From an uncultured Oscillospiraceae bacterium (lineage in GTDB: Bacteria > Bacillota > Clostridia > Oscillospirales > Oscillospiraceae), in assembly GCA_905234855.1 (NCBI GenBank), contig CAJOIU010000009.1, forward strand, positions 1 to 64,000: a stretch of 64,000 nucleotides of DNA. The letters are read 5' to 3'. The notes below the pieces were generated by a model. That model was given only the letters and a program-made list of their open reading frames with translations. It did not search any database and was not told the DNA's origin. Position 1 is the first letter of the stretch. Each line of letters begins with the position of its first letter. Positions 10,700-25,443 of the stretch are shown one piece after another. A program made the position numbers and the translations under genes.

Positions 10700-11194
10700 T
10701 TACGCCGGGAACAGCGCTTTTTTGATTTGGCCGACGGCGTTTTTCTCGAGGCGCGATACCTGCGCCTGCGAGATGCCGATGGCGGCGGCGACCTCCATCT
10801 GGGTGCGCCCGTCGAAGAACCGCATGGCGAGGATGCGTTTTTCCCGCTCGCCGAGCTTATCCACCGCCTCCGAGAGGGCGATGCGCTCCAGCCACGCGGC
10901 ATCGGTGTTTTTGTTGTCGCAAATCTTGTCCATGACGGAAACGCTCTCGCCCGCTTCGCCGTATACCGGGTCGAACAGGCTCACGGGGTCGGAGATCGCG
11001 TCCATGGCCATGACGACCTCGGATACCGGCAGCTCTAGAGCCTTTGCGACCTCGTCCACGGATGGCTCCCGCTGTTGAGAGCTGATGAGCGCTTCCCGCG
11101 CCTGCATGACCTTATAGGCGAGATCCCTCAGCGAGCGGGATACGCGCACGGCGCTGTTATCCCGCAGATACCGCCGTATCTCCCCGGAAATCAT
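10700..11194 (-). CDS. sigG: sigG, C-terminal part (codons 96-259), separated from its start by a 13.9-kb element
   Basis: This 164-codon frame begins inside a conserved sigma-factor block (MISGEIRRYLRDN, then RVSRSLRDLAYK). It runs through region 3 (PVSLFDPVYGE) to the region 4 helix-turn-helix (TQMEVAAAIGISQAQVSRLEK) characteristic of forespore SigG. Nothing upstream resembles a ribosome site, and the frame stays open into the element, so this part is probably not translated in the integrated state. Joined to codons 1-95 at 25388-25104 it gives 259 codons, against about 260 for Bacillus SigG. Both halves are free of stops and frameshifts. Recombination at the shared CC inside the Pro95 codon keeps the frame exactly. 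Confidence 0.93.
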   Translation of the reverse strand: MISGEIRRYLRDNSAVRVSRSLRDLAYKVMQAREALISSQQREPSVDEVAKALELPVSEVVMAMDAISDPVSLFDPVYGEAGESVSVMDKICDNKNTDAAWLERIALSEAVDKLGEREKRILAMRFFDGRTQMEVAAAIGISQAQVSRLEKNAVGQIKKALFPA

Positions 11195-11219
11195 CGGAAC
11201 GGATATCGGATGGAGAAAC
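11191..11219. other. Left att junction of the sigG element (sigG C-half side)
   Basis: Plus-strand GG at 11196-11197 is the putative crossover dinucleotide. The inward arm 11198-11219 contains GGATATCGGATGGAGAAAC. Its inverted partner at the other end (25083-25104) is identical at 20 of 22 positions. Sequence to the left of GG is sigG coding DNA. Combining the two inner arms gives a 46-bp attP centred on the dinucleotide, the layout expected for a large serine recombinase. Confidence 0.88.
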
Positions 11220-11250
11220 GCGGCGTTTATGCCCGATACAACCGTATGTA

Positions 11251-12822
11251 TCAGGCGTTTTCTTGGCTGATAAGATAGCTTTGCAGCTTCAGATGGACGT
11301 CGATCACGCCGTTTTTATAAAGAACGACCCGGTCGATCAGCGCTTGGCAGACGGTCTGCCTTTCCAGCTCGCTCATATGCGGCCAAGTGGATCGCAGGGT
11401 GCGGAGGATGCCCCGAGCCTTGCGGAGCTTCTTCTCGATGCCGGACTTTTCCTCCTCCTCGCGGATCTGCGCCTCGATATGCGCCATCCGCTTTTTTACG
11501 TCGAGGATTTTTTCGCGCAATACGTCGTCCGGCTCGTCCTCGTCCTCAAAATCGTACAGGCGGCTCAACCGGCGCCGTTCCTTGGCAAGCTCCCCTTGGA
11601 GCACGCCGATGGGATCGACGGAACCGACCGCCTTGCTGTTTTCCTCCTGCCCCAGATAGGCGAGGCGAAAAAGCTCCTCGATGACAGCCTGCTCCACATC
11701 GTCCGCCCAATAGCGCTCGTTATCGCAGTTTTCGTCCCTGATGAGATTTTTCTTATTGGTCTGCTGGGAATAGCAGACGAATTTTCTGCCCGGGCTGCCC
11801 CATTTCTGATAGCGCATCTTGGCGCCGCATTCGCCGCAGTACACAAGGCCGGACAGCAGGTAATGGGAGCTCGTTCGGTGAACGCTGCGCCGCTCCAGCT
11901 CCTCCTGCGCCGCCTCCCAAGTCTCCGAAGGGATGATCGCCTCGTGGTTGCCGGGGTACTCCTGCCCGTTATATACGATGCACCCGGTCAGCGATTTTCG
12001 CTTCAGGATCTGCGTGATCGCCCGGTCGCCGCTGAAGCCGAACCGCTCGGCGATCTTCTGCGGAGGCGTCTTTTCTTCGATGTACAGGCGGAAGATTTCC
12101 CGGACGATCGCAGCTTCCTCGGGGACGATGATGAGGGAGGAGCTGTCCTTATCATAGCGGTAGCCATAGGGCGTTTTTCCGCCGCCCATCCATTTGCCGG
12201 AGGCGACCCGCGCCATGCGGCCGCGTTTGAGCTTTTCCACGATCTGATCGCGGTCAAATTCGGCCAGCGTGGCAAACAGCATCAGCATGAATTTTCCTTG
12301 GGGATTGTCCTTGTCGATCCGGCAGAAATTCTCCGCCACGGATACAAAATTGATATCCTCCCGGTTTCGGTTCACGGTGCTGTTTTTGCTGTCCTTGGCG
12401 CAGACGATATAGTCCTGCAGAAATTGGAGTGTGCCCAGCAGGGTGCGGCCAAGCCGGTCGATCCGGGCGACGATCAGAGAATCGACCCGGATGCGCGTCC
12501 TGCCCGCGTTATAATCGCTGATATGGGAAATGATGTCCTGCAGGGCGGGGCGATCCATGCGGGTGCCCGTGTAGCCGTCGTCGATGAACAGGACAAGATT
12601 GGGATATCCGTTCGCCCTGCAGTAGCGGACGATGTCCGCCTCTTGGATGTCGAGGCCGAAGCCGAGATCGGCCTGACGATCCGTCGAGACGCGCAGATAG
12701 CCGATATTCATAAGGAAGCTCCCGTCCGCGTCCTGCGGCACAGCGTCGTCGATGGCGATCCTCATGTGGGAGCGAAGCTCGAGGATGTCTCGCAGATGAT
12801 ACGTCTTTTCCGTTCTCTGCAT
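11251..12822 (-). CDS. Large serine recombinase of the sigG element
   Basis: 523 residues from the ATG at 12822, which follows GGGAGGTGG; the longer frame to 12954 crosses the promoter and is rejected. The resolvase domain has catalytic Ser46 in GYLRVSTDRQ, then the conserved arginines in RIDRLGRTLLG and EFDRDQIVEKLKRGR. A recombinase domain (KTPYGYRYD onward), a zinc ribbon (GLVYCGECGAKMRY, then a CY...C pair) and a C-terminal coiled coil follow. About 38 residues precede the catalytic core, which is unusual. Enzymes of this type integrate alone and need a directionality factor to excise, except in skin-like systems. Its gene end is 54 bp from the left att site. Confidence 0.95.
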   Translation of the reverse strand: MQRTEKTYHLRDILELRSHMRIAIDDAVPQDADGSFLMNIGYLRVSTDRQADLGFGLDIQEADIVRYCRANGYPNLVLFIDDGYTGTRMDRPALQDIISHISDYNAGRTRIRVDSLIVARIDRLGRTLLGTLQFLQDYIVCAKDSKNSTVNRNREDINFVSVAENFCRIDKDNPQGKFMLMLFATLAEFDRDQIVEKLKRGRMARVASGKWMGGGKTPYGYRYDKDSSSLIIVPEEAAIVREIFRLYIEEKTPPQKIAERFGFSGDRAITQILKRKSLTGCIVYNGQEYPGNHEAIIPSETWEAAQEELERRSVHRTSSHYLLSGLVYCGECGAKMRYQKWGSPGRKFVCYSQQTNKKNLIRDENCDNERYWADDVEQAVIEELFRLAYLGQEENSKAVGSVDPIGVLQGELAKERRRLSRLYDFEDEDEPDDVLREKILDVKKRMAHIEAQIREEEEKSGIEKKLRKARGILRTLRSTWPHMSELERQTVCQALIDRVVLYKNGVIDVHLKLQSYLISQENA

Positions 12823-12841
12823 ATGCCCACCTCCCGACAGA

Positions 12842-12870
12842 AGTATAACACATCGTTTCGTATTACGCAA
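12842..12870 (-). promoter_or_regulatory. Housekeeping-type promoter of the recombinase gene
   Basis: Read on the minus strand: TTGCGT (12870-12865), 17-bp spacer, TATACT (12847-12842), 19 nt before the ATG at 12822. It looks like an ordinary sigma-A promoter rather than a sporulation one, which would give recombinase during growth. Confidence 0.6.
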
Positions 12871-12972
12871 GAATTGGTAACTTTTACATGTATGAATAAA
12901 GAAATAACAACAGTGGGATGCGCGTTGACCGCGCCTCACTGCGATTTTTTTCATGCCGGATGCGGATGCGTG

Positions 12973-12981
12973 TGTTATAAT
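12973..12981 (+). promoter_or_regulatory. Extended -10 promoter element before the Pr6Pr-like gene
   Basis: TGTTATAAT (12973-12981) is an extended -10 with no good -35, 62 nt before the ATG at 13044. The rest of the gap 12871-13043 shows nothing else recognisable. Confidence 0.4.
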
Positions 12982-13043
12982 AATGCCCGGAACGGCTCCG
13001 ATGGAGTTCCGGGAAGAATCTGAAATGAGTAAAGGAAGGCGTT

Positions 13044-13709
13044 ATGAAGCAGGAGAGAGGGAAGCTGTTATTTGCCGGGCTGATCGTGCTGCTGACGGTC
13101 ATAGGCTGTTGTGTGATGCTATCGAACACGAACGAGGGGCTCCTGACCGTGTTTGGGCTTGCGAATCTGAAATTCTTTACGGTCGATTCCAATATTCTGA
13201 TCGGTCTTGTATATCTGGCGTATCTGATCCTCGCTGCTGCGGGGAGCATGGAGCGGTCTGACCGCCTTCGGCTTTGGATGGAGCGGATGATCTACATAGC
13301 CACGACGGCGGTCAGTCTGACCTTCGTCGTCGTGGTGTGCTTTTTTGCGCCGAGCCTTGGCCTCGCGCCGCTGCTGCAGGACGCAAACCTGTATTTCCAT
13401 CTCATCATCCCGGTGCTGGCCATTGCGGGCTTTGCCGTGTTCCGCCGGGATCGGCTCATCCCTATGTGGGAGACGGCTCTGCCGCTGATCCCGTCCGTGC
13501 TTTATGGCCTGTATTACACGGCCATCCTTCTGGCGGAGGGAGTGCGTTTCCCGGATACCGACTGGTATGGCTTTGCCAGCGGCGGGGTGATCGGATCCGT
13601 GATCATTGCGGCAATGATTTTCCTCATGACATGGGGGCTGGCGCTGCTGCTGCGGCTGGTCTCGGGCGGGATCGTCCGGCAGGCCGGGAAGCGGAACAGC
13701 AAAGTATGA
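13044..13709 (+). CDS. Pr6Pr-family-like integral membrane protein
   Basis: 221 residues with six predicted hydrophobic segments. It has short polar loops and a basic C-terminus. Features shared with Pr6Pr-type membrane proteins are NLKFFTVDSNILIGLVYLA in helix 2 and a YFHLIIPVLAIAGF helix followed by PSVLYGLYY. The function of the family is unknown. It starts 221 nt from the recombinase start and is transcribed away from it; fbp follows on the same strand 87 nt later. It is part of the cargo of the sigG element. Confidence 0.65.
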   Translation: MKQERGKLLFAGLIVLLTVIGCCVMLSNTNEGLLTVFGLANLKFFTVDSNILIGLVYLAYLILAAAGSMERSDRLRLWMERMIYIATTAVSLTFVVVVCFFAPSLGLAPLLQDANLYFHLIIPVLAIAGFAVFRRDRLIPMWETALPLIPSVLYGLYYTAILLAEGVRFPDTDWYGFASGGVIGSVIIAAMIFLMTWGLALLLRLVSGGIVRQAGKRNSKV

Positions 13710-13796
13710 ATGAGCATCATAGGCGGTTTCCAAAGCGGCGTTGATGACATGTCAGACGCCCTTCGGAAATTGACATCCCATGGAGGGGGGAATAAA

Positions 13797-15824
13797 ATGA
13801 GCGGAAAGAATGTTCGGGAGGGCTTTGTCATGAACAGCCATAAGACCTACACCGCGGAGGAGCTTCGCTATCTGCGCATGCTCGCCCGACAGTATCCGAC
13901 GGTACAGGCCGCAGGGACGGAAATCATCAACCTCCGCGCCATTCTGAACCTGCCGAAGGGATGCGAGCATTTCATCTCGGACGTACATGGGGAGCATGAG
14001 GCTTTTCTGCATATCCTCAATTCCTGCTCCGGCGTTGTGCGGGAGAAGCTCGACGAGATGTTTTCCAACAGCATCCCCCACGCCGCACTTGATGAGCTGG
14101 CAACGCTCATCTATTACCCGCAGGAGAAATTCGAGCAAATCAAAGCCGGGATCGACGATCTGGATGAATGGTATCGGATCACGCTGCACCGGCTCGTGGA
14201 GGTGTGCCGGGTCATGTCTGCGCAGTATTCCCGCTCCCGGGTAAGAAAAGCCCTGCCGCCGGATCTTGCGTATATTCTGGAGGAGCTGCTGCATACGGAC
14301 AGCGCAGACCCGGACAAGCGCGATTATTATGAGAACATCATCGCGGCCATCATCGAGACGGAGCAGGCTCCTGATCTGGTCACCGCCCTCTGCGAGACCA
14401 TCAAGCGCATGGCGGTGGATCATCTGCACATCGTCGGCGACATTTTCGACCGCGGTCCCCGGGCGGACATCATCATGGACTCGCTCATGGACTATCACAG
14501 CGTGGACATCCAGTGGGGCAATCACGATATCCTCTGGATGGGCGCCGCCTCCGGCAGCCGCACGCTGGTGGCGACGGTGCTGGCAAACTCTATCCACTAC
14601 AACAATCTGGAGGTCGTGGAAACGGGCTACGGCATCTCGCTCCGCCCGCTGTCCGTTTTTGCAAACGAGACCTACCAGAACTGTGACGTATCCCGCTTCC
14701 GCGTCAAGCTCACGGAGGGAGAGGATGCGGTCTCCGAAAAGGACAAGCTGCTCTCCGCGCGGATGCACAAGGCCATCACGGTCATCCTGTTCAAGCTGGA
14801 GGGGCAGAAGATCCTGCGCCACCCGGAATACGGCATGGATGACCGGCTGCTGCTCGATAAGATCGACTATGAGAACCGATGCATCACCATCGGGGACGTC
14901 ACATGGCCCTTGGAGGATACCGATCTGCCGACCGTCGATCCGGCAGATCCCTATACCCTTTCCGCGGAGGAAGAGCGCGTTATCGCGCAGCTCACGGAAT
15001 CCTTCCGCCGGAGCGAGAAGCTGCAGCGGCATGTGCGCTTTCTTTACTCCAAGGGCAGCCTTTATAAGATCTACAACGGCAATCTCCTGTTCCACGGCTG
15101 CATCCCCCTGACCGAGAGCGGCGAGTTCATGCCCTTCGACTGGCTGGGCTATCACTGGGAGGGACGGTCGTTTCTTGATTTTGCCGATCGCAGCGCCCGG
15201 CAGGCATATTACTACCGCCCCGGTTCAAAGGAACGCATGCTCGGGATGGACTTTCTGTGGTTTCTGTGGGCCGGACGCAACAGCCCCATTTTCGGAAGGG
15301 ATCGCATGACCACCTTCGAGCGTCGTCTTATCGCGGACGAGGCCGCGTGGGCGGAGCCGAAAAACGCATATTACCGGCTGTACAACGACCCCGCGGTGTG
15401 CAGCGCCATTCTGAAGGAGTTCGGGCTGGAGGGCGAGCATTGCCACATCATCAACGGACATGTGCCCGTGAAGGCCGGAAAGGGCGAGAGCCCCATAAAA
15501 GGAGGCGGGAAGCTCATCGTCATCGACGGCGGCTTCTGCAAAGCGTATCAGCCCACCTCCGGAATCGCGGGATATACGCTGATCTGCGACTCCTACGCCT
15601 ATCGCATCGTGGCTCACCAGCCCTTCGCCGGGCGGGAGCATGCTCTGAGAGAGAACTTTGACATTACCTCCACATCCGAGGTTTTTGAACGTCTGGAACG
15701 GCGGCAGAAGGTTTCGGACACGGATAACGGCCGCCAGCTTCAGATGCAGATCGAGGATCTCATGAAGCTTCTGGCCGCCTACAAGGCCGGCGCGGTCATG
15801 GAGGATCACACAAAGCATCGATAA
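13797..15824 (+). CDS. fbp: Fructose-1,6-bisphosphatase, class III
   Basis: 675 residues from the ATG at 13797, preceded by GGAGGGGGG; Bacillus Fbp is about the same length. The metallophosphoesterase core is visible: FISDVHGEHEAF at about residue 60, GDIFDRGPRAD near 214, WGNHDILWMGA near 240, and the late substrate block HVPVKAGKGESPIKGGGK. It hydrolyses fructose-1,6-bisphosphate to fructose-6-phosphate, the committed gluconeogenic step, in the cytosol and with manganese. Oddly, this metabolic enzyme lies inside the excisable sigG element, so excision would remove it from the chromosome unless a second copy exists. Confidence 0.95.
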   Translation: MSGKNVREGFVMNSHKTYTAEELRYLRMLARQYPTVQAAGTEIINLRAILNLPKGCEHFISDVHGEHEAFLHILNSCSGVVREKLDEMFSNSIPHAALDELATLIYYPQEKFEQIKAGIDDLDEWYRITLHRLVEVCRVMSAQYSRSRVRKALPPDLAYILEELLHTDSADPDKRDYYENIIAAIIETEQAPDLVTALCETIKRMAVDHLHIVGDIFDRGPRADIIMDSLMDYHSVDIQWGNHDILWMGAASGSRTLVATVLANSIHYNNLEVVETGYGISLRPLSVFANETYQNCDVSRFRVKLTEGEDAVSEKDKLLSARMHKAITVILFKLEGQKILRHPEYGMDDRLLLDKIDYENRCITIGDVTWPLEDTDLPTVDPADPYTLSAEEERVIAQLTESFRRSEKLQRHVRFLYSKGSLYKIYNGNLLFHGCIPLTESGEFMPFDWLGYHWEGRSFLDFADRSARQAYYYRPGSKERMLGMDFLWFLWAGRNSPIFGRDRMTTFERRLIADEAAWAEPKNAYYRLYNDPAVCSAILKEFGLEGEHCHIINGHVPVKAGKGESPIKGGGKLIVIDGGFCKAYQPTSGIAGYTLICDSYAYRIVAHQPFAGREHALRENFDITSTSEVFERLERRQKVSDTDNGRQLQMQIEDLMKLLAAYKAGAVMEDHTKHR

Positions 15825-15832
15825 TACGACTG

Positions 15833-15857
15833 CCGCCGTGCGGCGTGTTGTTTCCAA
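15833..15857 (+). terminator. Weak terminator-like hairpin after fbp
   Basis: GCCGC-CGT-GCGGC followed by GTGTTGTTT, a few bases past the fbp stop. The stem is short. From here to 15986 I see no gene. Confidence 0.4.
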
Positions 15858-15986
15858 AAACGGAAACGATGAAGATCGCCCTGCCGGAACGGCGGTCATC
15901 ATGTGCACCCAAGACAGCGGGAAATTCACATGGAAGGCGGGGCTTACCCGCGTGGAGTGCGTTTTGATCGGCGGGGTATGCGCATG

Positions 15987-16543
15987 CTAGTGGTGCTGCT
16001 GGATAACTGGATCGGAAACCAGTTTGTGTTCATGCTTTTGTGCGGTGTCGGTCTCGTAATCTCCCGCGTGGCTCTTTTCCCACTGCATCTTATAGTTCAC
16101 GGTGGCCTCGCCCCGGTTCATAAGGCCGGTGGCCAGATTCAAAGAGATCAGCGGCGAGGAGTCGCTGTCCTCGTTTCCAACGCAGATGTAGAAGTGCTGT
16201 GCATCGAAGCCTGCGTCGTTTCCGAGGTGACGAAGACCCCGTCCTCCTGCAGCTCGTCGAGATATGTCTGTATTTCCGCGTCGCTGTCGAAATTCGCGGT
16301 CAGATACTCATTCAGCGACGTGTTTATGAGGGTATATAAATAGGGCGTGTAGGTGTCGTTTTCTCCGAGCGTGAGCTGCTCGCCGGTCTTCGGATCGGTC
16401 AGACCGAGGCTGTTGAGGTAATTGGGATACAGCGCAGCCAGAGCCGATGACAGAGCGGGAACCACCGCTCCCTTGGGCGTGCCCTTGCCGCCGTAGGCCT
16501 CGGGAACGCCGGAGAAATACCATTCGAATGACGCATCCGGCGT
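15987..16543 (-). pseudogene. C-terminal fragment of a tannase/feruloyl-esterase-like alpha/beta hydrolase, frameshifted
   Basis: Two overlapping minus-strand frames together read as the C-terminal part of a tannase-like esterase. From 16543, FEWYFSGVPEAYGGKGTPKG leads into ALYPNYLNSLGLTDPKTGEQ. Around 16200-16220 the frame shifts. The continuation reads DAQHFYICVGNEDSDSSPLI and then MQWEKSHAGDYETDTAQKHE, ending with a stop at 15987. HFYICVGNEDSD and the SHAGDY histidine match the end of such esterases (...IRTGxxDxDTS...GHxGDYD). There is no start or N-terminal half. A related N-terminal half with its own stop lies at 17404-18336. Confidence 0.7.
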
Positions 16544-16696
16544 TTATGTCTTATGCTGGGGGTCGGGCTCTTTGGCAGAGGTATCATAGATATCATTGAC
16601 GATCCGATCTACGGCGGGACATGTGATGATGATCTTATTATACTCGGACGGGTCAATCGGCTTGCCGTCTAGGAACAGTCGCACTTTGAGTTTCAT
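16544..16696 (-). CDS. Small 50-residue protein of unknown function in the sigG element
   Basis: An ATG at 16696 follows AAGGACGGG and opens a 50-codon frame beginning MKLKVRLFLDGKPID and ending EPDPQHKT. The sequence is charged, with a VDRIVNDIYD helix, and shows no cysteines or membrane segment. I do not recognise the family. Size and location in an excisable element make it a possible accessory DNA-binding or directionality protein, but nothing in the sequence proves that. Its 3' end abuts the esterase pseudogene. Confidence 0.5.
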   Translation of the reverse strand: MKLKVRLFLDGKPIDPSEYNKIIITCPAVDRIVNDIYDTSAKEPDPQHKT

Positions 16697-17002
16697 GGGC
16701 TCACCCGTCCTTTCCTTCAGATTTTTGCCGTAATCAGAACCGGCAATACAAGGCAGGCGTGAATAAATGCAGAAGATGAGCGCATGAAGCATGGGGCCGC
16801 AGAATCATAGATTTATAATGAACAAACGTATGGGAGCGTTGCAGAATAGATATTCTGTGACGCGCTCTTTTTGTCCGCCAAGACAGACAAAAATGAAAAA
16901 TGCGCCCGAAATGTGGGAAACTTCCGCGTTTCGGGCGAACTTTTATAGACGCCAATCTGTTGGGCAGTGTCAAATGTGGAGAATATTTTGTTTTTCTTGG
17001 GA

Positions 17003-17310
17003 CTATGCTGTGTTCAACTCGGAAATATGCGTTTGCAGCCGTCCGGCTTCACGCTTTTTCCAGTACTTTTTGAGGTTGAAGCCCAAAGCAAAAAGAAACA
17101 GCTCCGTCCGCACGTTTCTCTTGCCCCGTGTGAGGAAACGCCGGAATCCAAAGTCATTCTTCAAATTCCCCCAGCTTCTCCAACAGCAATATATACTGGT
17201 AGAACAGCTCCTCTATCTCTGGCGTACACCGCTGCTTGAACCGCGCTATGGTGGATGAAGCTGTAGACAGGATAGAACCCGTAGTCCGAAAGCTAAGTAT
17301 GCGAGCCCAG
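17003..17310 (-). pseudogene. IS1182-type transposase remnant with internal deletion
   Basis: Minus-strand reading gives the N-terminal piece STIARFKQRCTPEIEELFYQ followed by YILLLEKLGEFEE and a stop at 17154. In another frame the C-terminal piece NDFGFRRFLTRGKRNVRTEL leads into FLFALGFNLKKYWKKRE, with a stop at 17003. These are the two ends of an IS1182-family DDE transposase (IARFR...LFY near the start; FGFRRFLTRG...LxxxxFNL near the end). The catalytic middle is lost. The surrounding 16793-17402 has no intact gene. The AT-rich stretch near 16800-16960, with a CAGAATA/TATTCTG dyad at about 16848-16858, is probably the rest of the insertion. Confidence 0.72.
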
Positions 17311-17403
17311 CGAGCAGGCCATGGAGCTTGATTTTAACGCAAACAAAGGCACCAGCCAACCCTTTTTCGGGAAAAGCTGGTGCCTTTGTTTCATTTCGCT
17401 ATG

Positions 17404-18336
17404 TTATTTTGCGTATTTCGCCATCATGGCGTCGATGACGCCGTTCTGCGTGGTATTCAGCGGGGTGTTGGAGCCGTGTCCTGCGTTCCATGTCCATGCG
17501 AAGCTGGCATCCACGCCGTTCATGGAAAGAGCCAGCGCGTCGGAATAGCTCTGGAACTCCGCGTCCAGATCGGCGCGGGTGACGCCCATGCTCCATTCGT
17601 ATCCCTCGCCCGCGGAGTCGAGACCCGTGATGGGACACCAGCACATGGCCGCGGCTACGGCGTCGCTCGCGTCCGCCGCGCCGATGGCATCGAGATACGG
17701 CGTATACAGCTCGCTGTCGCCCGTCGCGCCCAGAACCGCGGTCTGGCTGCCGCCGCCGCTCATGCCGAAGGGTACTATGCGGTCGCCGCAGCCGGGGAGC
17801 ACATCAAGATTGGCTCGGATATAGCGGATGGCAGCCTTCAGATCCACCACGCCCGCGGGCGCGCCCACATCCTTGCCGCGGCAGCCCGCGGAGACGTAGA
17901 CAAAGCCCGCAGCGGTGTATTTTGCCGAGCCGCTGACATATCCCGTGGGCGCGGACTGCGCCGAATGCCCCGGCGTGTTCACCGGGAACACGATGGGAGC
18001 GGTGGCGGACGTGAAGCCCGCGGCCGTTCCGGCCTCGTTCACCGCGCAGGTGTACATCCCGTTGCCGTTGGGCGTGCCGGTCATGTATGCGCCGGGGACA
18101 TAGATGCCGAGGTTCTCGTAGCCGGCGTCGGCGGGCTCCGCACAATACGAAACGCCGACCTGCCAATATACGTCGTTTGCCTCATTATACTGCCAGCGGG
18201 TCATGTCCACCGCGCCGTATTCCGTCAGTTCGGGCTGCGCGGATCTGCCGGAGGCCTCGCCGCTGGCCCATGCCGCGCCGGACAGCAGCGAAAAAATGAG
18301 GCACAAGGCCGCTGTAAATGATATGATTCTTTTCAT
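17404..18336 (-). CDS. Secreted alpha/beta-hydrolase, short tannase/feruloyl-esterase-like
   Basis: 310 residues from the ATG at 18336 after TAAGGAGG. There is a signal peptide (residues 1-24, ending AAWASG) and then GEASGRSAQ. The nucleophile elbow is FGMSGGGSQTAV, and an oxyanion-type stretch VYVSAGCRGKD lies before it. The C-terminal NAGHGSNTP could supply the histidine. Longer relatives have a lid domain of some 200 residues between the elbow and the histidine; here TRADLDAEFQ runs almost directly into VDASFAWTWNAGHG, so the gene looks internally shortened. It may be a compact active esterase or a decaying one. It shares the DASF(A/E)W motif with the pseudogene at 15987-16543. Confidence 0.72.
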   Translation of the reverse strand: MKRIISFTAALCLIFSLLSGAAWASGEASGRSAQPELTEYGAVDMTRWQYNEANDVYWQVGVSYCAEPADAGYENLGIYVPGAYMTGTPNGNGMYTCAVNEAGTAAGFTSATAPIVFPVNTPGHSAQSAPTGYVSGSAKYTAAGFVYVSAGCRGKDVGAPAGVVDLKAAIRYIRANLDVLPGCGDRIVPFGMSGGGSQTAVLGATGDSELYTPYLDAIGAADASDAVAAAMCWCPITGLDSAGEGYEWSMGVTRADLDAEFQSYSDALALSMNGVDASFAWTWNAGHGSNTPLNTTQNGVIDAMMAKYAK

Positions 18337-18370
18337 GCCGTTCCTCCTTAGGTTCCAGTCTCTCATGCCT

Positions 18371-18399
18371 ACTATATAAAAAGAGCGATGTCCGGGCAA
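18371..18399 (-). promoter_or_regulatory. Housekeeping-type promoter of the esterase gene
   Basis: Minus strand: TTGCCC (18399-18394), 17-bp spacer, TATAGT (18376-18371), 35 nt before the ATG at 18336. Confidence 0.55.
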
Positions 18400-18612
18400 G
18401 AGCGTGGGAACAAACAACACAAATTCGGAATAAACAACGCACGATAAAAAAATATGTGAAAATATAGACATTGTATCATATGTCTGATAGAATATAATTG
18501 GTAGATTATAATTTGACTGAAGGAGTTATGGGAGAGGAAGATCAAAACACAGAAGAAGCATATCGACAACCAGAAGCCCATCGAATACAAGTACTTTGGG
18601 AGGCGGCGGAAT

Positions 18613-19275
18613 ATGGATATGAACAAGGAAACAAAACAGCTTGAACGGCAGGGCGAGTCCGTATCGGAAAACATCTGGCTATGCCCGGACGGGGTGTATC
18701 GCTGGGTGTATGAGTACGACATGCTGCGAAATCCCGGGATCATGGTCACCGTGTGGAAGGTGCTGGGCATCTCCTTCGGAGCGGTGTTCCTGTTTAATCT
18801 CATCGTCAGCCTGTTCGGGGGCGATCTGAAGACCATGGACGATCTTTGGGGTATAGGAAAGCTGTTCCTGATCCTTGCGGGGATCTTCCTTGTGCTCAGC
18901 GTTGTTTCCTATATCATTCTGGCGGCGCTGTACGGCTGGAAGTATCAGGTGCTGTTTGAGATGACGGACGAATACGTGAAGCACATCCAGATGCCCAAGC
19001 AGTTCAAAAAGGCCGAGGCCATCGGCTGGCTCACGGCCTTCGTGGGGGCGCTGGCTCACAAGCCCTATATGGTCGCGCTGGGCTCCAACGTCGCCGCGCG
19101 GAATACCAGCACATCCGAATTCAAAAACGTGGAGATCGTAAAGGTGCGCCGCAAGCGACACACCATCCATGTGAACCAGCTTCTGGACAAGAATCAGGTC
19201 TATGCCGAGGACGCGGATTTCGATTTCGTGGAGAAATACATCCTCGACCGCTGCGTGAAAGCAAAGGTTAAATAA
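18613..19275 (+). CDS. Two-TM membrane protein of unknown function
   Basis: 220 residues from the ATG at 18613, preceded by GGGAGGCGG. A polar N-terminus (residues 1-45) precedes two hydrophobic helices (about 46-68 and 82-108). A basic/mixed cytosolic part of about 110 residues follows, with KVRRKRHTIHVNQLLDKNQV near the end. The layout resembles YcxB/PH-like bacterial membrane proteins, but the identity is unproven. The frame stays open for about 30 codons upstream without an ATG. The zinc-ribbon protein gene follows after 14 nt, so the two are probably co-transcribed. Confidence 0.7.
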   Translation: MDMNKETKQLERQGESVSENIWLCPDGVYRWVYEYDMLRNPGIMVTVWKVLGISFGAVFLFNLIVSLFGGDLKTMDDLWGIGKLFLILAGIFLVLSVVSYIILAALYGWKYQVLFEMTDEYVKHIQMPKQFKKAEAIGWLTAFVGALAHKPYMVALGSNVAARNTSTSEFKNVEIVKVRRKRHTIHVNQLLDKNQVYAEDADFDFVEKYILDRCVKAKVK

Positions 19276-19289
19276 GGGAGGGGGCTATC

Positions 19290-21530
19290 ATGGCAAGATT
19301 CTGCCGATACTGCGGAAATCCCGTCCGGGAGGGCGCAAACTTCTGCAAAACCTGCGGCGCGCGGATCGGCGCACAGAGCGCCCCAAACGGAGCGGGTACA
19401 TTCACGGGGAGATCTGCGCGTTCCGCCGCTTATCCGTCCCAGCCGAGGACGACCTCGTCCCGCGTGGGCGTGCCCGCAGCGCAGGCGAAGAAGAAAAAAA
19501 GCCCTGCGGCGGGGATCGCCGCCGTGCTGGTGATCGCGCTGCTCGTGACCGGCTTCGGCTGGCCCGGCTGGCTCCGCACGCTCATCCGCGGCGGCGGGGA
19601 CGAAGCGGCGATCCAAGACGTCGGGGACGAAGCGGCAGTCCAGAGCGATAGGGACGAAGCGGCAGTCCAAGGCGGCGGGGAAGAAGCGGTGATCCACACC
19701 GTAGAGGTCACGCTGCCCGCATCCACAGGCGCGCGTGCCGCCGTGGAGGAGGAAGCCGCCGTGGCGGTGGAGGCGTATCTCGTGGCACGGGCGTATTACG
19801 ACAAGCTTGAGAACTACGACCTCGAAAACTTCGACCCGGACGATTACAATGACCTGCTGGATCGGGCGGTGACCGCCTTTGAGATCGCGGACGAGCTGAG
19901 TGCCGCGCTGGAGGAGGACGCCGAATACCTTTCCGAGTTGGAAGACGAGGGCGTGACCGAAGCGGGAGCGGCCGTCTACCGGGAACTGACGGCGAGGCCC
20001 CGCACGATCAACCCGTTTACTGTGACCGCTTACGCGGCGGATGAGTCTCCCTCGATGAAGTGGGCGCAGGATATCACGAAAATCTACGACAAGGCTCCGG
20101 TGGGTAAGGGCATACGAACCTTGGCCGCAGAGCTGGGTACCGACGCAAAACATGCCTACGCCTTGCTGACCCAAGCGCAGAATATCATTGCGGGAGATGC
20201 GATGGCGGAGGCCGAATACTGGAACGCCGCTTATCAGACGGCGGTGGAGACCAAGGCGGCGGCATCCGCTGCAGGGTTTGCGGTGGCGGTAGCCGCCAGC
20301 GGCGGCGCCGCGGCAGGCATAGCGTCGGCTCTCGAGGTGGGAGGCGTGGTATGCAGCGGCGTACAGGCGGTGCTCGATGTCGGCACCGCCGTAACGATCG
20401 CAACGACGAACGGCGAGGGCAACGAATACACGACCGCGTTTGAAAACACCTCGTCCCAATTTGCTCCGATCAGCGCCTTTTTCGCGCTCGGCAACGCCGG
20501 CGTGAACGCCTATAACATCTATAAAGGCGTCGATGTGGGCGACAACAAAGCGCAGGCCATCATCTATCTGGCAAACTCCGTAACGGATTATTTCACATCG
20601 GACGGCAGTATCCTCGGAGGTACGCTTACATACAACAAGGACGGGCTGAGCTTCACACTGATGGACACGCTTTTCGGAACGGACCCCAAACAGCAGGAGG
20701 CGGCGAAAAAGATGCTGCGCGATCTCGGATTGGACGAAAAGATCATCAAGGAGGCAATGGATATCGCCGCGGGCAAAGCACCGTCCACCCCCGCGCCGGA
20801 GATCGCGCCGGAGCCGGAGGAGGAAGAGGGATACGACGGCGGTCTGGGTGACATGGCCGATCAATACATCGAGCAGTATGATATCTTCACCGACCCCAAC
20901 GAGCGCTTTGACAAATATGGCTTCATAGAGTATATGCGCAATCGGGTCACCTCCTCCGGGCAGGATTACGGGGATTTTGAGCGCCCGAAGGTCATCGAGC
21001 CGGGACTGCATGTGGATCCCGACGACGACTCGTTCGACGAGCCGGCTGAGCCCGAGCTCACGACCGAACCCACGCCGGAGCCTACGCCGAAGCCGACGGC
21101 AACTCCCAAGCCGACGTCTACGCCAAAACCGACGCCCACGCCGAAACTCAACGGCGGTTTCGAGGAGGGGATCACCGGGTCATACAGCATCTACTGTCTG
21201 GACAGTTATACATGGAACAGCAGCGGCAATACCGACGCCTATGATTACGAATATACGGCACAGGTGCTTCTGCATGACAGCGGTACGATGGAGATCAGCT
21301 TCGCGAATGAGCACATCGTCGGGACATATGACCCGCAGACCCGTACCTTTGTCGGCATCGGCGACACCGTCACGGACGACCCGCTGGCGACCTCGTTTTT
21401 CTCCCTGTATGAGACGACGCTCGTTTTCGAGACGGATGCCGGCATTCCCATAGCGACCGGCGGCTTCGATTACTGGAACAGCTTTACCACGGGCAGGGTC
21501 GATATCATCATGGAAAAGCTGGACGGCTGA
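19290..21530 (+). CDS. Zinc-ribbon membrane-anchored protein with repeat and Thr-Pro linker
   Basis: 746 residues; AGGGAGGG precedes the ATG. A double CxxC zinc ribbon (FCRYCGNPVREGANFCKTCG) lies at residues 4-23. A single membrane helix follows near 70-92, then three degenerate 11-residue repeats (DEAAVQ type, about 103-135). The large outer part is mainly helical with a small-residue hydrophobic stretch at about 325-360. A linker of EPTPEPTPKPTATPKPT repeats (about 593-625) leads to a C-terminal beta domain of about 120 residues. The zinc ribbon faces the cytosol and the rest is probably outside. Function unknown. Genes of this plan are common in Clostridia as surface or stress sensors. Confidence 0.75.
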   Translation: MARFCRYCGNPVREGANFCKTCGARIGAQSAPNGAGTFTGRSARSAAYPSQPRTTSSRVGVPAAQAKKKKSPAAGIAAVLVIALLVTGFGWPGWLRTLIRGGGDEAAIQDVGDEAAVQSDRDEAAVQGGGEEAVIHTVEVTLPASTGARAAVEEEAAVAVEAYLVARAYYDKLENYDLENFDPDDYNDLLDRAVTAFEIADELSAALEEDAEYLSELEDEGVTEAGAAVYRELTARPRTINPFTVTAYAADESPSMKWAQDITKIYDKAPVGKGIRTLAAELGTDAKHAYALLTQAQNIIAGDAMAEAEYWNAAYQTAVETKAAASAAGFAVAVAASGGAAAGIASALEVGGVVCSGVQAVLDVGTAVTIATTNGEGNEYTTAFENTSSQFAPISAFFALGNAGVNAYNIYKGVDVGDNKAQAIIYLANSVTDYFTSDGSILGGTLTYNKDGLSFTLMDTLFGTDPKQQEAAKKMLRDLGLDEKIIKEAMDIAAGKAPSTPAPEIAPEPEEEEGYDGGLGDMADQYIEQYDIFTDPNERFDKYGFIEYMRNRVTSSGQDYGDFERPKVIEPGLHVDPDDDSFDEPAEPELTTEPTPEPTPKPTATPKPTSTPKPTPTPKLNGGFEEGITGSYSIYCLDSYTWNSSGNTDAYDYEYTAQVLLHDSGTMEISFANEHIVGTYDPQTRTFVGIGDTVTDDPLATSFFSLYETTLVFETDAGIPIATGGFDYWNSFTTGRVDIIMEKLDG
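19595..19700 (+). repeat. Degenerate tandem repeat (GACGAAGCGGC units) in the zinc-ribbon gene
   Basis: Three to four diverged copies about 27-33 bp apart, each with GGGGA(C/A)GAAGCGG followed by (A/C)(T/G)(A/T)CC. They encode GDEAAIQ, GDEAAVQ, RDEAAVQ and GEEAVIH just outside the membrane helix. Confidence 0.7.
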
Positions 21531-21759
21531 CGCGCAGGGATTCCGGGAGGGAGCAAGCGGCAGCGTCTTATTGCAAAAGATTCCGCGGGCTTGAGCCTTC
21601 TGCATTGAAGGCTCAGTCCGCGGTTTTTATTCCGCCATATCCTTCCCGGGAGCAAAGCTCGGCGTTTCCACGCCGTGCCGACGGATTTTTGTAGTGGAAA
21701 TGGGAGACCCTATTTGGTAAAATACCGGCGGGAAACAATGTAACAGTGAGGTCAAAGCA

Positions 21760-24471
21760 TTGGAATACTATTTGGAAAACCCGGAAAAGGTGCTGCGTGA
21801 GCTCAACACCTCGGAGCAGGGACTGAGTGACGGGGAGGCTGCGGCAAGGCTGCAGCAAAACGGGAAAAACCTTCTGGAGGAAGAAGAAAAGCGCTCTGTT
21901 TGGCGGAAATTTCTGGATTCCGTAACGGACCCGATGATCTTGATGCTGCTGGGAGCTGCGCTGGTGCAGGTCGTCGTAACGATTCTGGAGACCCGCGGGG
22001 ATTTTTCCCTCGGCTCCTTCACGGACGTCTTTGTGATCCTTGCGGTCGTGATCCTCAACGCGATCATGAGCCTCGTTCAGGAAAACAAGGCGGAGGCGGC
22101 CATGGCCGCCCTTATGCAGATGACGGCCGAAACCTCCAGAGTGGTTCGGGACGGCGCGGTGATCTCCGTGAAAAGCGAGGAGCTGGTGGTGGGCGATATC
22201 GTCCGCTTTGAGGCCGGGGATACCGTACCCGCCGATTGCCGCGTTCTGGAATCTCACAGCCTGAAGGCGGAGGAAGCCGCTCTCACGGGCGAGCCTTTGG
22301 CGGCGGAAAAGCTGGTGGATGTTCTGATGTGCGCCGAAGGTCAGGATGATATCCCCCTCGGCGACAGGGCGAATATGCTCTACAGCGGCTCCACCGTAGT
22401 TTACGGGCGCGGAACGGGCGTCGTGACTGCCACGGGCATGGATACGGAAATGGGCAAGATCGCCGGCGCCCTTCAGCTGGCTGAAAAGGAGCAGACGCCG
22501 CTGCAGAAGCGCATGGCGGAGCTTTCGGCCTTTCTGACGAAGCTGGTCATCGGCATCTGCGTGGTCGTCTTTGCCGTGGGCTGTATCCAGTCTGTCGTTC
22601 TGACAGATACGGCCTTTTCATGGGAGCTTTTCGGCGCCAGCGCCGTTAACAGCCTTGTGGCGGCCATCGCGCTGGCCGTGGCAGCCATCCCGGAGGGGCT
22701 GCCCGCCGTCGTGACGATCGTGCTGTCCATCGGCGTGACCGATATGGCGAGGCATCAGGCGCTGATCCGCAAGCTGACCGCCGTCGAGACCCTTGGCTGC
22801 ACGCAGATCATCTGCACGGACAAAACAGGCACGCTGACCCAAAACAAAATGACGGTCGTTCGCGAGTATACGGACGATCCGAAGCTGATGGCGACCGCCA
22901 TGGCGCTGTGCTCCGACGCCGAGCTCCTGCCCGGCGAGACTTCCTCCGCCGGAGAACCCACGGAGACCGCGCTCGTCGATTACGCGCTGAAGCTCGGCCT
23001 TCCGAAATACGAGCTGACATCCGCCCAGCCGCGTGTGGCCGAAGCGCCCTTTGATTCCGACCGAAAGATGATGTCCACGATCCATAGGACAGACAGCGGC
23101 TTCATTCAATATACCAAGGGCGCGTGCGACATGGTTTTGGAGCATTGCATCGGCTATCTGAAGGATGGCCGGATCGTCCCCATGACGGAGGCTGTTCTCG
23201 AAGAGATCCGGCAGGTCAACAAATCCTATGCGGATGAGGCTCTGCGGGTGCTGGCGGCGGCTTATCGGAGCTATGATGTCCTGCCGGAGGATACCGACCC
23301 GGACAGTCTGGAGCAGTCTTTGATCCTGATCGGTCTCTACGGCATGATCGACCCCTGCAGGCCGGAGGCGTATGAGGCGATCGAAAAATGCCGCATGGCG
23401 GGGATCCGCCCCATCATGATCACGGGGGATCACAAGGATACCGCCGTGGCCATCGGAAAGGATCTCGGCATCCTCCAAAGCGCCGAGGAGGCGGCGCTGG
23501 GCGCGGAACTGGACAAATACACGGACGAGGAGCTTACGGAGGTCGTGAGCCGGTATTCCGTCTATGCCCGGGTGCAGCCGGAGCATAAGACCCGTATCGT
23601 CAATGCGTGGCAGGCGAGAGGCATGGTCACCGCCATGACCGGCGACGGCGTGAACGACGCGCCCTCCATCAAAAAAGCGGACATCGGCATCGGCATGGGC
23701 ATCACCGGCACCCCGGTCACGAAGAGCGCCGCCGATATGGTTCTGGCGGACGACAATTTCGCTACCATCATCCGGGCGATCGAGGCAGGACGCAAGATCT
23801 ATGACAATATCTGCAAGGTGCTGCAGTTCCAGCTTTCCACCAATCTGGCGGAGGTGCTGATCGTTTTCTTCGCCTCCATCCTGAATTTTACCATCCTGAC
23901 GCCCGTCCATCTGCTGTGGATCAATATGGTGACCGATACGCTGCCCGGGCTGGCGCTGGGCATGGAAACGGCAGAGGGGGAGCTCATGAAGCGAAAGCCC
24001 CGGGCGAAGGAGGAAAGCATCTTTGCAAACGGCGCGGGCGTCAGTATGCTCTGGCAGGGCGTTTATCTTGCCGCCATCGAGATCGCCGCCTATTATATCG
24101 GCTACCTTCTGGAGAACGGCTCCTTCTCCGGCCTCGCGCAGGGCAGGTGGTGTGAAAACGCCGTCGTTATGGTCTTTCTCACGGTGAGCTTTTCGGAAGC
24201 CCTCTGCGCGCTGAATATGCGCTCGCGCACAGGCTCGATCTTCCGGCGTGAGATGCTTCTGAATATCAACTGGTGGATGGTCGGCGCGATGGCCATAACC
24301 GTCGCTCTGACGCTGGCAGCCGCATTTCTGCCGGGCTTCCGGGAGCTGTTCGGCATCCACGGTACGCTGACGGCCAAGGAGCTGCTGATCTCCGTGGGGC
24401 TGGCGCTTTCCACGCTTCCTGTATTTGAAGCGGGTAAGGCCATCCAGCGGGTGGGGCGGAGGAAAGCGTAA
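21760..24471 (+). CDS. Calcium-type P-type ATPase (PMCA/SERCA-like)
   Basis: 903 residues starting with TTG at 21760 after GTGAGG; no ATG gives the conserved N-terminal cation-ATPase domain. The phosphorylated aspartate is Asp354 in CTDKTGTLTQNKM. The actuator TGE is in ALTGEPLAAE, the ion-site helix M4 has PEGLPAVV, and the hinge is MTGDGVNDAP. About ten membrane helices are predicted. PEGLP and the N-terminal domain point to the P2A/P2B calcium-exporting class, though manganese or other cations are possible. It is cargo of the sigG element, with a TTG start that may keep expression low. Confidence 0.9.
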   Translation: MEYYLENPEKVLRELNTSEQGLSDGEAAARLQQNGKNLLEEEEKRSVWRKFLDSVTDPMILMLLGAALVQVVVTILETRGDFSLGSFTDVFVILAVVILNAIMSLVQENKAEAAMAALMQMTAETSRVVRDGAVISVKSEELVVGDIVRFEAGDTVPADCRVLESHSLKAEEAALTGEPLAAEKLVDVLMCAEGQDDIPLGDRANMLYSGSTVVYGRGTGVVTATGMDTEMGKIAGALQLAEKEQTPLQKRMAELSAFLTKLVIGICVVVFAVGCIQSVVLTDTAFSWELFGASAVNSLVAAIALAVAAIPEGLPAVVTIVLSIGVTDMARHQALIRKLTAVETLGCTQIICTDKTGTLTQNKMTVVREYTDDPKLMATAMALCSDAELLPGETSSAGEPTETALVDYALKLGLPKYELTSAQPRVAEAPFDSDRKMMSTIHRTDSGFIQYTKGACDMVLEHCIGYLKDGRIVPMTEAVLEEIRQVNKSYADEALRVLAAAYRSYDVLPEDTDPDSLEQSLILIGLYGMIDPCRPEAYEAIEKCRMAGIRPIMITGDHKDTAVAIGKDLGILQSAEEAALGAELDKYTDEELTEVVSRYSVYARVQPEHKTRIVNAWQARGMVTAMTGDGVNDAPSIKKADIGIGMGITGTPVTKSAADMVLADDNFATIIRAIEAGRKIYDNICKVLQFQLSTNLAEVLIVFFASILNFTILTPVHLLWINMVTDTLPGLALGMETAEGELMKRKPRAKEESIFANGAGVSMLWQGVYLAAIEIAAYYIGYLLENGSFSGLAQGRWCENAVVMVFLTVSFSEALCALNMRSRTGSIFRREMLLNINWWMVGAMAITVALTLAAAFLPGFRELFGIHGTLTAKELLISVGLALSTLPVFEAGKAIQRVGRRKA

Positions 24472-24483
24472 CAGTCTTTCAAG

Positions 24484-24520
24484 GGGGTGGCCGCGGCAGG
24501 TCATCCCCGATTTTGTTGTT
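24484..24520 (+). terminator. Probable terminator after the P-type ATPase gene
   Basis: A GGGGTGGCC / GGTCATCCCC imperfect stem is followed by GATTTTGTTGTTTTT. It overlaps the stop codon of the convergent gene at 24501. Confidence 0.5.
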
Positions 24521-25061
24521 TTTCGAAATGCGTGTGGATGCTGACCGTAAAAGCCGTCGGCTCTCTCGGCGGATCCCTGCGGCTGTAAACCGGCAGTGCC
24601 AGCTTCTCCAGCAGACTGCGCCAGCGGCTGGTATGGTTATAAACGGCGACGGTATACCAGCAGCGGACGCCGGGGCTTCTTTCGGCGTCAAATTCCTCGG
24701 CGCTCCGGGGGCGGATGCGGAGGTATTCCGCCTTGAACGCCTCGGTCGCTTCGGCGCGGCGTTCCTCCTCCGGGGGCTTATGTACGGGATAGTTCTCCTG
24801 CAGCCACTCCCGCAGCGGAAGCCCGAAGCGCCGCCGGATCACCGGGTGGGGAGGAAGACCGCGTTTTTTGAAATCTGTGGCCGTGGGTACCCTGCCGTTG
24901 TCGAGGATGAACTGCTCGACGGCGTCGCGGATCGCGGCCTCCGACCAGTGGTTCAGCGGTAATTCCTCCGAAAGGGTATGCAGGACTTCGATCGCCTCCC
25001 CGTTCTGCTCGGATTCGGATAGTGCTTGTATAGCAAGGGACAGAGCCTGTTTGCGCGTCAT
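24501..25061 (-). CDS. Right-end gene of the sigG element; candidate directionality/excision factor
   Basis: 186 residues from the ATG at 25061, which has its own AAGGGAGG site. The frame is also continuous with sigG codons 1-95 through a short linker, so a fusion product is possible. The N-terminal 50 residues are helical (MTRKQALSLAIQALSESEQN). A winged or HNH-associated-repeat-like unit follows: AIRDAVEQFILDNGRVPTAT, then PPHPVIRRRFGLPLREWLQE at about residues 63-105. The C-terminus is basic with WYTVAVYNHTSRWRSLLEKL. These features suggest DNA binding. It starts 44 bp inside the element and can only be transcribed from the sigG promoter, which fits a recombination directionality factor made at sporulation. 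Function is inference. Confidence 0.6.
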   Translation of the reverse strand: MTRKQALSLAIQALSESEQNGEAIEVLHTLSEELPLNHWSEAAIRDAVEQFILDNGRVPTATDFKKRGLPPHPVIRRRFGLPLREWLQENYPVHKPPEEERRAEATEAFKAEYLRIRPRSAEEFDAERSPGVRCWYTVAVYNHTSRWRSLLEKLALPVYSRRDPPREPTAFTVSIHTHFEKQQNRG

Positions 25062-25082
25062 GGAAAAACCTCCCTTTGCCCG

Positions 25083-25112
25083 GTTTCTCCGTCCGATATC
25101 CATTGGCACGCC
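25083..25112. other. Right att junction of the sigG element (sigG N-half side)
   Basis: The inner arm 25083-25104 contains GTTTCTCCGTCCGATATCC, the reverse complement of the left arm with 2 mismatches in 22. Plus-strand GG at 25105-25106 is the shared dinucleotide, and sigG coding DNA follows. Joining the outer flanks of both junctions gives attB in the sequence coding TYGVPMISGEI. Confidence 0.88.
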
Positions 25113-25388
25113 GTAGGTGGAAAACTTGACCTGCTGATCCACGTCAAAATGATCGATGGCTTTGATGAGACCGATGCAGCCGACCTGAAAGAGATCGTCC
25201 ACATTCTCCCCCCGCCCGGAGAAGCGCTGGATCACAGATAAAACGAGCCGGAGATTTCCGGCGATCAGCTCCTCCCGGGCGGCCATATCCCCGGCCTTGG
25301 CACGGATGAGCAGGGCGCGTGTCTCCTCGTTTTTGAGCACCTTCAGCTTCGCTGTGTTCACACCGCAGATCTCCACTTTGCTTTGCAT
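25104..25388 (-). CDS. sigG: sigG, N-terminal part (codons 1-95), interrupted
   Basis: The ATG at 25388 follows GAGGAGG by 7 nt; an upstream ATG at 25394 is too close to the site. The part begins MQSKVEICGVNTAKLKVLKN, close to Bacillus SigG (KVEICGV...VLKNEE). It then contains regions 2.1-2.2 (NLRLVLSVIQRF, DDLFQVGCIGLIKAIDHF) and stops at KFSTYGVP. The missing continuation MISGEIRRYLRDN is found at 11194. In the integrated state the frame instead runs into the element gene and ends at 24501. The truncated product would keep the core-polymerase-binding region but lack regions 2.4, 3 and 4. Confidence 0.94.
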
Positions 25389-25413: not shown

Positions 25414-25443
25414 TAGTTTTGCCAGTTCGGTGGCGTTTGATGC
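25414..25443 (-). promoter_or_regulatory. Sigma-F-like promoter of sigG
   Basis: Minus strand: GCATC (25443-25439), 15-bp spacer, GGCAAAACTA (25423-25414). The -10 fits the forespore sigma-F consensus GGnRAnAMTW at every position, and the -35 fits GYWTA at 4 of 5. Bacillus sigG is sigma-F driven. The site is 26 nt before the ATG and would also transcribe the element gene at 24501-25061. Confidence 0.6.

Follow-up and report, generated by a model that had tools for sequence, protein, structure and literature searches.

How can a sporulation gene be cut in two when its product is the sigma factor of the forespore, the cell that becomes the spore? This question is raised by a 64,000-nucleotide stretch of DNA (the window) from an uncultured Oscillospiraceae bacterium (GenBank assembly GCA_905234855.1, contig CAJOIU010000009.1, positions 1 to 64,000 of the forward strand), in which sigG, the gene of that sigma factor, lies in two segments on either side of a 13.9-kb element carrying a large serine recombinase. 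A split at codons 95/96, with the halves remaining in frame, was the core of the original prediction, made from the sequence alone, and it is borne out by the translations, by Pfam and by a joined product of 259 residues. The split sigG of the window belongs to a widespread family, among whose other members are phages, mini-inserts without genes, unlinked recombinases and one inverted form.

The split gene and the ends of its element

25388-25104, minus strand: sigG 5' segment, codons 1-95, breaking off at the CCA (Pro95) codon (translation)
11194-10700, minus strand: sigG 3' segment, codons 96-259 and stop (translation)
11195..25103, no strand: intervening element, 13,909 bp (interval between the sigG segments)

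Sigma region 2 is matched by Pfam in the 5' segment, and regions 3 and 4 in the 3' segment. With the CC of codon 95 as the joint, a single open frame of 259 residues results. SigG models score best for this joined protein in NCBIfam: NF006071 reaches 412.8 bits (cut-off 372), and a second SigG model, TIGR02850, reaches 414.1 bits, which is under its cut-off of 457. A second intact sigG had been named as something to look for, and in the bacterium's own assembly, which is 82.6% complete, the SigG-level matches are the two halves only. Both halves are under as much constraint as an uninterrupted sigG, in agreement with their earlier description as free of damage. Between split and intact genomes of the genus, the ratio of nonsynonymous to synonymous differences (pN/pS) is 0.126 versus 0.148 for the N half and 0.225 versus 0.211 for the C half; for the window's own halves against the others it is 0.175 and 0.237.

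25081..25130, minus strand: attL, consisting of sigG half-site, CC core (25106-25105) and element arm (junction reading, inverted-repeat test)
11172..11221, minus strand: attR, consisting of element arm, CC core (11197-11196) and sigG half-site (junction reading, inverted-repeat test)

When the element arm before the CC (3' side) is paired with the arm after the CC (5' side), the 24-nt ends of the element pair as inverted repeats at 20/24 positions around a centre that falls exactly on the CC of Pro95; none of 10,000 shuffles attains this score, and shifted centres give at most 9. Palindromic arms around a short core are the anatomy of a serine-integrase attP, and the sigG sequence flanking the CC is similar to the element arms (family consensus), as expected of attB. 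The same holds beyond the window. In the 32 genomes with both junctions the CC core is present at both of them, the CC on the sigG side belonging to a proline codon, and the best palindrome centre is the CC in 29, while three type-B genomes centre at +0.5. The two ends of one element match each other at a mean of 16.6/24 positions, versus 12.3 for 992 cross-pairs. Since the halves are intact and the ends still form a good attP, precise removal of this serine-recombinase element from sigG is plausible, and to that extent its predicted removability stands.

11251..12822, minus strand: large serine recombinase, 523 aa (Pfam Resolvase, Recombinase and zinc ribbon; PHROG 'integrase', 1e-91)
16544..16696, minus strand: 50-aa small protein, candidate recombination directionality factor (its kin precede the recombinase in related elements)
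24501..25061, minus strand: 186-aa MTRKQAL protein, putative accessory factor (sub-threshold HNH_repeat match)

The recombinase gene lies 57 bp from the sigG 3' segment. Its product combines the three domains of large serine integrases with an RVST motif, in which serine 46, presumably the catalytic serine, is invariant in 8 rows. The best NCBIfam model is XisF, at 2.4e-32, far below that model's cut-off. The MTRKQAL gene is located directly behind the sigG 5' segment and is read in the same direction; its kin occupy the same end in two other genomes (G038 and locus L148) and, in L221, adjoin the recombinase of a phage.

The small protein has no match in Pfam, PHROG or NCBIfam (above cut-off), and its structure model, a hairpin and a helix, has a mean predicted local distance difference test score of 79. 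It belongs to a family of 40-to-100-aa proteins, with the start R[YF].NG, that precede the recombinase; such a protein was found in that position at 28 loci by one pattern and at 15 type-A loci plus the window by another, that is, in at least 43 of the 80 recombinase loci described below. In the window a membrane-protein gene and a fructose-1,6-bisphosphatase gene separate it from the recombinase. Because known directionality factors are small and unlike one another (PMC5025042, PMC10747680), the putative factor of yin being a small protein too (PMC10747680), this protein is the best candidate for the role. Among the nine element proteins compared with PHROGs no phage structural or lysis family was found, the integrase being the sole match with a phage function; the window element is therefore not a prophage.

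Recurrence of the split among Clostridia and phages

A search of 149 relatives with the joined SigG found the uninterrupted gene in 107. In 20 it is cut after codon 95 (17 seen via the 3' half; G008, G012 and G032 via the 5' half only), and for the other 22 either no copy was found or contig edges left the case undecided. The recombinase (E ≤1e-60) is present in 12 of the 149; all 12 have a split sigG, none is among the 107 with a whole gene, and no genome of the 149 combines a whole sigG with the recombinase. The junctions diverge at an identical point, and the element ends vary by lineage, which argues for many independent insertions at one site.

A wider scan of GTDB used eight sigG-adjacent recombinases as queries, and 80 loci of at least 472 relatives were kept. 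In 66 of them the stretch also contains a sigG half, and in 14 none is seen, a proportion that is partly due to construction, as the queries were themselves sigG-adjacent; the class sample below is the fairer test. The halves beside recombinases terminate at codon 95 or begin at codon 96 (in L142 the alignment starts at codon 102). A half-site matrix built from the 32 joined ends scores at least 15 in 12 of the 80 loci, every one an attR with sigG on one side. The hosts are Oscillospiraceae, Lachnospiraceae, Defluviitaleaceae and other Clostridia, nearly all uncultured. Fifty of the 80 genomes were searched whole: 46 have a half without a whole sigG, one has the whole gene only (G161), one has a whole gene and an N-half (G181, perhaps a mixed assembly) and two have neither half (G162, G182). 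One contig with a sigG half and a recombinase (L135) is filed under the archaeon Candidatus Methanovirga, most likely as a contamination.

In the class sample of 391 genomes, 15 have a recombinase match at ≤1e-100. All ten strong carriers (≤1e-169, window included) possess partial SigG only; two of them, G472 and G559, match partially and less well, with 46-47% identity and one stop, and have no N-half. None of the five weaker matches (1e-104 to 1e-116) is split, three having a whole sigG and two no SigG. The sigG half lies within about 1.5 kb of the recombinase in only 3 of the ten strong carriers; in most of them the recombinase is situated amid ordinary chromosomal genes, in a position that sister species share (L277/L278, L282/L283). 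A tree of 93 recombinases, from which 26 near-copies were left out, places 81 rows on one branch (100/98): 52 of 52 with an adjacent half, 16 of 16 unlinked ones and 13 of 20 viral ones. The five weak recombinases of the class sample fall outside it.

The scan of IMG/VR gave 52 viral loci, and in four of these (L218, L224-L226) a sigG half stands beside the recombinase. A full attP adjoins the recombinase in 6 of the 27 viral contigs scanned with the half-site matrix, with scores of 35 to 43 in L219, L220, L221 and L227 and of 21 to 22 in L223 and L246; the maximum of 20 shuffles per sequence was 11.7. Two of these contigs, L219 and L221, were examined for phage genes: an endolysin is encoded in both, and a head protease in L221. 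The small protein is also present in L219. Since free phage contigs hold the same attP beside such recombinases, phages are a likely source of the sigG-directed system.

The split takes several forms. Both halves are found on one contig as 15 pairs in direct orientation and one inverted pair. The direct inserts measure 13.9 kb in the window, 16.0 in G021, 6.4 in G056, 2.55 in G179, 2.51 in G192, 6.7 in G194, 6.0 in G197, 14.7 in G183, 14.7 in G160, 27.6 in G155, 17.4 in G154, 22.7 in G151, 17.1 in G166, 0.436 in G188 and 169.6 in G163. The recombinase of G188 does not fit into that genome's 436-bp insert and is located elsewhere (L158). The insert of about 170 kb in the mouse isolate C64_1 (G163; contig C5, 57402-227038, L270-L273) is prophage-like by eye, with polymerase, ribonucleotide reductase and tail-like genes named in the same way. 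Sites in inverted orientation, as in an inversion switch, occur only in the isolate Hominifimenecus microfluidus CLA-AA-H215 (G184), the window and the 14 other same-contig pairs being direct. Its junctions are 26,265 bp apart, with the mraZ-to-ftsZ cluster, spoIIGA and sigE between them, and its recombinase and small protein are located among purine genes (all named by eye). Because essential genes lie inside, this segment could be flipped but hardly excised. The two halves fall on separate contigs in G037 and G091, and the adjoining DNA carries chromosomal genes (by eye); in G091 a recombinase (L068, 11256-12632) is found on the outer flank of the 3' half, outside the insert. An exact overlap of contig ends, which would indicate a mixture of excised and integrated forms, was sought in G035 and not found. 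Judged by the 2.5-kb elements, vertical inheritance, sigma-F-like promoters, the 436-bp insert, the unlinked recombinases and the inverted halves, some forms look domesticated.

Proposed rejoining in the forespore and its alternatives

Intervening elements are known in sigK, spsM, spoVFB, spoVR, gerE and yabG (PMC6957869, PMC10747680, PMC5595907). The window's element shares with skin, gin and yin the in-frame split of a sporulation gene with both parts intact, attL and attR with a common short core and inverted-repeat arms, and a site-specific recombinase encoded by the element. However, almost all known elements interrupt mother-cell genes, which lets the spore retain them (PMC6957869), whereas SigG is a forespore factor; rejoining must occur in a cell whose DNA is inherited. 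Skin in sigK (SpoIVCA/Skr of Bacillus subtilis; CD1231/CD1234 of Clostridioides difficile) likewise splits a sporulation sigma gene in frame and has a large serine recombinase, but sigK acts in the dying mother cell, so the spore keeps the element (PMC6957869), while sigG acts in the germ line. In C. difficile the skin recombinase is under a sigma-A promoter and the timing comes from the small directionality factor (PMC5025042). Gin in gerE of Bacillus cereus ATCC10987 also lacks phage genes and also sits in a sporulation gene, and it uses a serine recombinase with a helper factor (PMC5595907); it differs in its mother-cell target and in having three recombinases, where the window element has one. 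Yin in yabG of Clostridium botulinum, vfbin in spoVFB and SPbeta in spsM are prophage-like or phage elements in sporulation genes too, at other targets, which are expressed in the mother cell. For these three we know of no inversions or gene-less inserts. The fdxN element of Anabaena, with XisF, is also excised from a gene in a differentiating cell; the window recombinase scores below the XisF cut-off, and heterocysts are terminal cells, unlike the forespore. No report of an interrupted sigG was found in the open literature, among the matches listed, in line with the original prediction, which likewise named no described case. While the way in which such elements insert is known, the literature covered contains no description of a forespore target, of unlinked or gene-less forms, or of an inversion.

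How, then, could a divided sigG serve the forespore? We consider it probable that an integrative element has been put into sigG by its own recombinase and, for the family as a whole, that sigG is rejoined in the forespore. The recombinase would insert the 13.9-kb element by a crossover at the CC of the Pro95 codon, and with the element in place no sigma-G would be made. Together with a directionality factor it would recombine attL with attR, so that a circle is released and the 259-codon gene restored. In the forespore of family members, sigma-F would transcribe the 5' part of sigG and, for several elements, also the small-protein and recombinase genes as one operon; sigG would be rejoined and sigma-G would appear late. 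The spore would then inherit a whole sigG and a free circle. Because the forespore becomes the spore, persistence needs re-insertion, which the enzyme alone should be able to carry out after germination, or inversion, the Hominifimenecus alternative, by which nothing would be lost. Either would solve the retention of the 2.5-kb elements, which are kept across species. Reversible excision and re-insertion in a surviving cell, as proposed here, is the behaviour of comK-integrated Listeria phages (active lysogeny), a system that is not developmental and has another recombinase and another target. It is an even question, in our judgement, whether Clostridia have repeatedly made a sigG-directed phage integration into a reversible forespore switch, rejoined by excision or inversion under sigma-F and split again after germination, with the recombinase as a host gene that is unlinked in several lineages.

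25414..25443, minus strand: sigma-F-like promoter before sigG, GCATC-15-GGCAAAACTA (10/11 consensus positions; weak alone)

A second sigma-F-like match with 10/11 positions lies further upstream of the window's sigG (at least 10/11 positions were counted as sigma-F-like, and 10/12 as sigma-A-like). Among 27 loci with an intact sigG, 13 have such a promoter before the gene, against 0.9% of shuffles; among 54 loci classed as split, 21 have one before the sigG segment, against 2.8% of shuffles. The 54 include three uncut loci (L083, L211, L213), so that 51 are truly split, and near-duplicates are counted. Upstream of the operon of small protein and recombinase, a sigma-F-like match is found in 12 of 56 clusters versus 1.8 expected. 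That removal is controlled by sporulation, as had also been predicted, is not borne out for the window, the sigma-F-like promoter evidence coming from other members of the family.

The inheritance of the recombinase was followed in 85 locus-pair rows with similar recombinases, of which 20 were excluded because they are frame artefacts (recombinase pN about 0.74) and 15, between type-A subgroups, are near saturation and uninformative; the L118 rows of the companion comparison are frame artefacts too. In eleven pairs (12 rows) the ratio of recombinase to sigG pS is 0.95 to 1.60 at a sigG pS of 0.39 to 0.86, and the pN of the recombinase is far lower than its pS, a pattern that points to vertical co-inheritance with the recombinase under purifying selection. 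The promoters of these pairs agree in part: matches are sigma-F-like in L145, L148, L155, L162, L167/L176 and L136, sigma-A-like in L142, L147 and L136, and neither in the remaining ones.

Several observations weigh against forespore rejoining. The small protein is a candidate factor without known fold or function, and the ends of type-B, G056, G166, G194 and G197 elements are palindromic only weakly (11-14/24). Sigma-A-like matches precede the operon in 12 of 56 clusters versus 1.4 expected, three clusters having both kinds, so forespore control would not be general. A sigma-A promoter before the window recombinase, considered by eye, has 8/12 positions only and is not claimed. The window element is of type A, one of the mobile types, in which recombinase pS is below sigG pS, and this fits plain parasitism. 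The sporulation of the window host is itself doubtful. Spo0A and SigF-like and SigE-like genes are present, but SigE matches to position 212 of 239 and is then apparently shifted in frame before the last helix (L002, on contig C7 of the same assembly), by a real loss or an assembly fault, and no SigK match was found in the 82.6% complete assembly; the strain may no longer sporulate. Fifteen of the relatives with a split sigG possess SigE in full as well as a second match that is SigK-like, and therefore the family can be active where the window strain may not be.

What else could account for a gene divided in this way? A selfish phage or mobile element might simply use sigG as its attB, without developmental control, the carriers sporulating only after its loss. 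This we regard as unlikely, though it deserves to be taken seriously. It is in accordance with the free phage contigs that hold attP, the prophage-like insert of isolate C64_1, the defence-like and metabolic cargo seen by eye, and a recombinase/sigG pS ratio of at most 0.68 in 38 of the 85 rows, which indicates that types A, B and L119-L123 move between species. On the other hand, both halves are constrained like whole genes, some pairs appear to be inherited vertically, and the 2.5-kb elements, the 436-bp insert and the unlinked recombinases have no obvious means of spread. The host's apparent sigE frameshift and the lack of a SigK match in its assembly would also suit decay, that is, a dead sigG broken by insertion in lineages without sporulation. 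But pN/pS is unchanged relative to intact copies, the fifteen split relatives mentioned above have an entire SigE and a SigK-like match, and there is a single cut codon instead of scattered lesions; decay is thus quite improbable.

The remaining explanations can be set aside more firmly. Two separately made proteins could assemble into a split sigma factor, since the 3' segment begins with ATG and might be translated by itself; yet the cut falls inside region 2 (Pfam matches it over 53 of 71 positions) and not between domains, and halves up to 170 kb apart share no promoter, so this idea merits very little credence. Least credible of all is an assembly error: many draft genomes do break near the junctions, but here the split lies on a single contiguous contig and the element has reciprocal palindromic ends, and dozens of assemblies made independently show sigG cut at this very codon. 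On this evidence the assembly-error, pseudogene and split-protein explanations were rejected.

If forespore rejoining is true, it would be a reversible, programmed DNA rearrangement in a bacterial germ line, achieved either through excision followed by re-insertion or through the flipping of a 26-kb segment that holds cell-division genes. The recombinase would be a host gene, and the germ-line chromosome would be cut and mended once per life cycle. A phage family would target sporulation at the forespore step, and annotations of missing or broken sigG would misjudge the sporulation ability of many gut Clostridia. Cultured isolates with a split sigG exist, among them H. microfluidus and the mouse isolates C64_1 and B35_35_AM_H, which makes the proposal testable.

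Cargo of the elements

13044..13709, plus strand: membrane protein, function unassigned (sub-threshold matches only)
13764..15824, plus strand: class III fructose-1,6-bisphosphatase (PF06874, 942 bits)
17404..18342, minus strand: esterase-like protein (PF20434, 4e-7)
18613..19275, plus strand: protein of unassigned function (no Pfam, PHROG or NCBIfam match)
19290..21530, plus strand: large protein with N-terminal zinc ribbon, function unassigned (PF13240)
21760..24471, plus strand: calcium-type P-type ATPase (Pfam, NCBIfam)

The class III fructose-1,6-bisphosphatase recurs beside sigG. Apart from the window element, it is found upstream of the 5' half in G038 (L053, 7760-9754, by eye) and downstream of the 5' half in four Lachnospiraceae (L199, L201, L204, L206; by eye). 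The type-B and G038 elements (L056, L054, L098) carry cargo that looks defence-like by eye: SIR2-like, helicase, type I restriction and long helicase-like genes. The G038 element also encodes a Mob_Pre relaxase (L052, 12986-13969), and some type-A elements may therefore be mobilizable; none was seen in the window element. A microcompartment shell protein (BMC domain; L163, 9003-9716) is the only cargo of a 2.5-kb sigG element.

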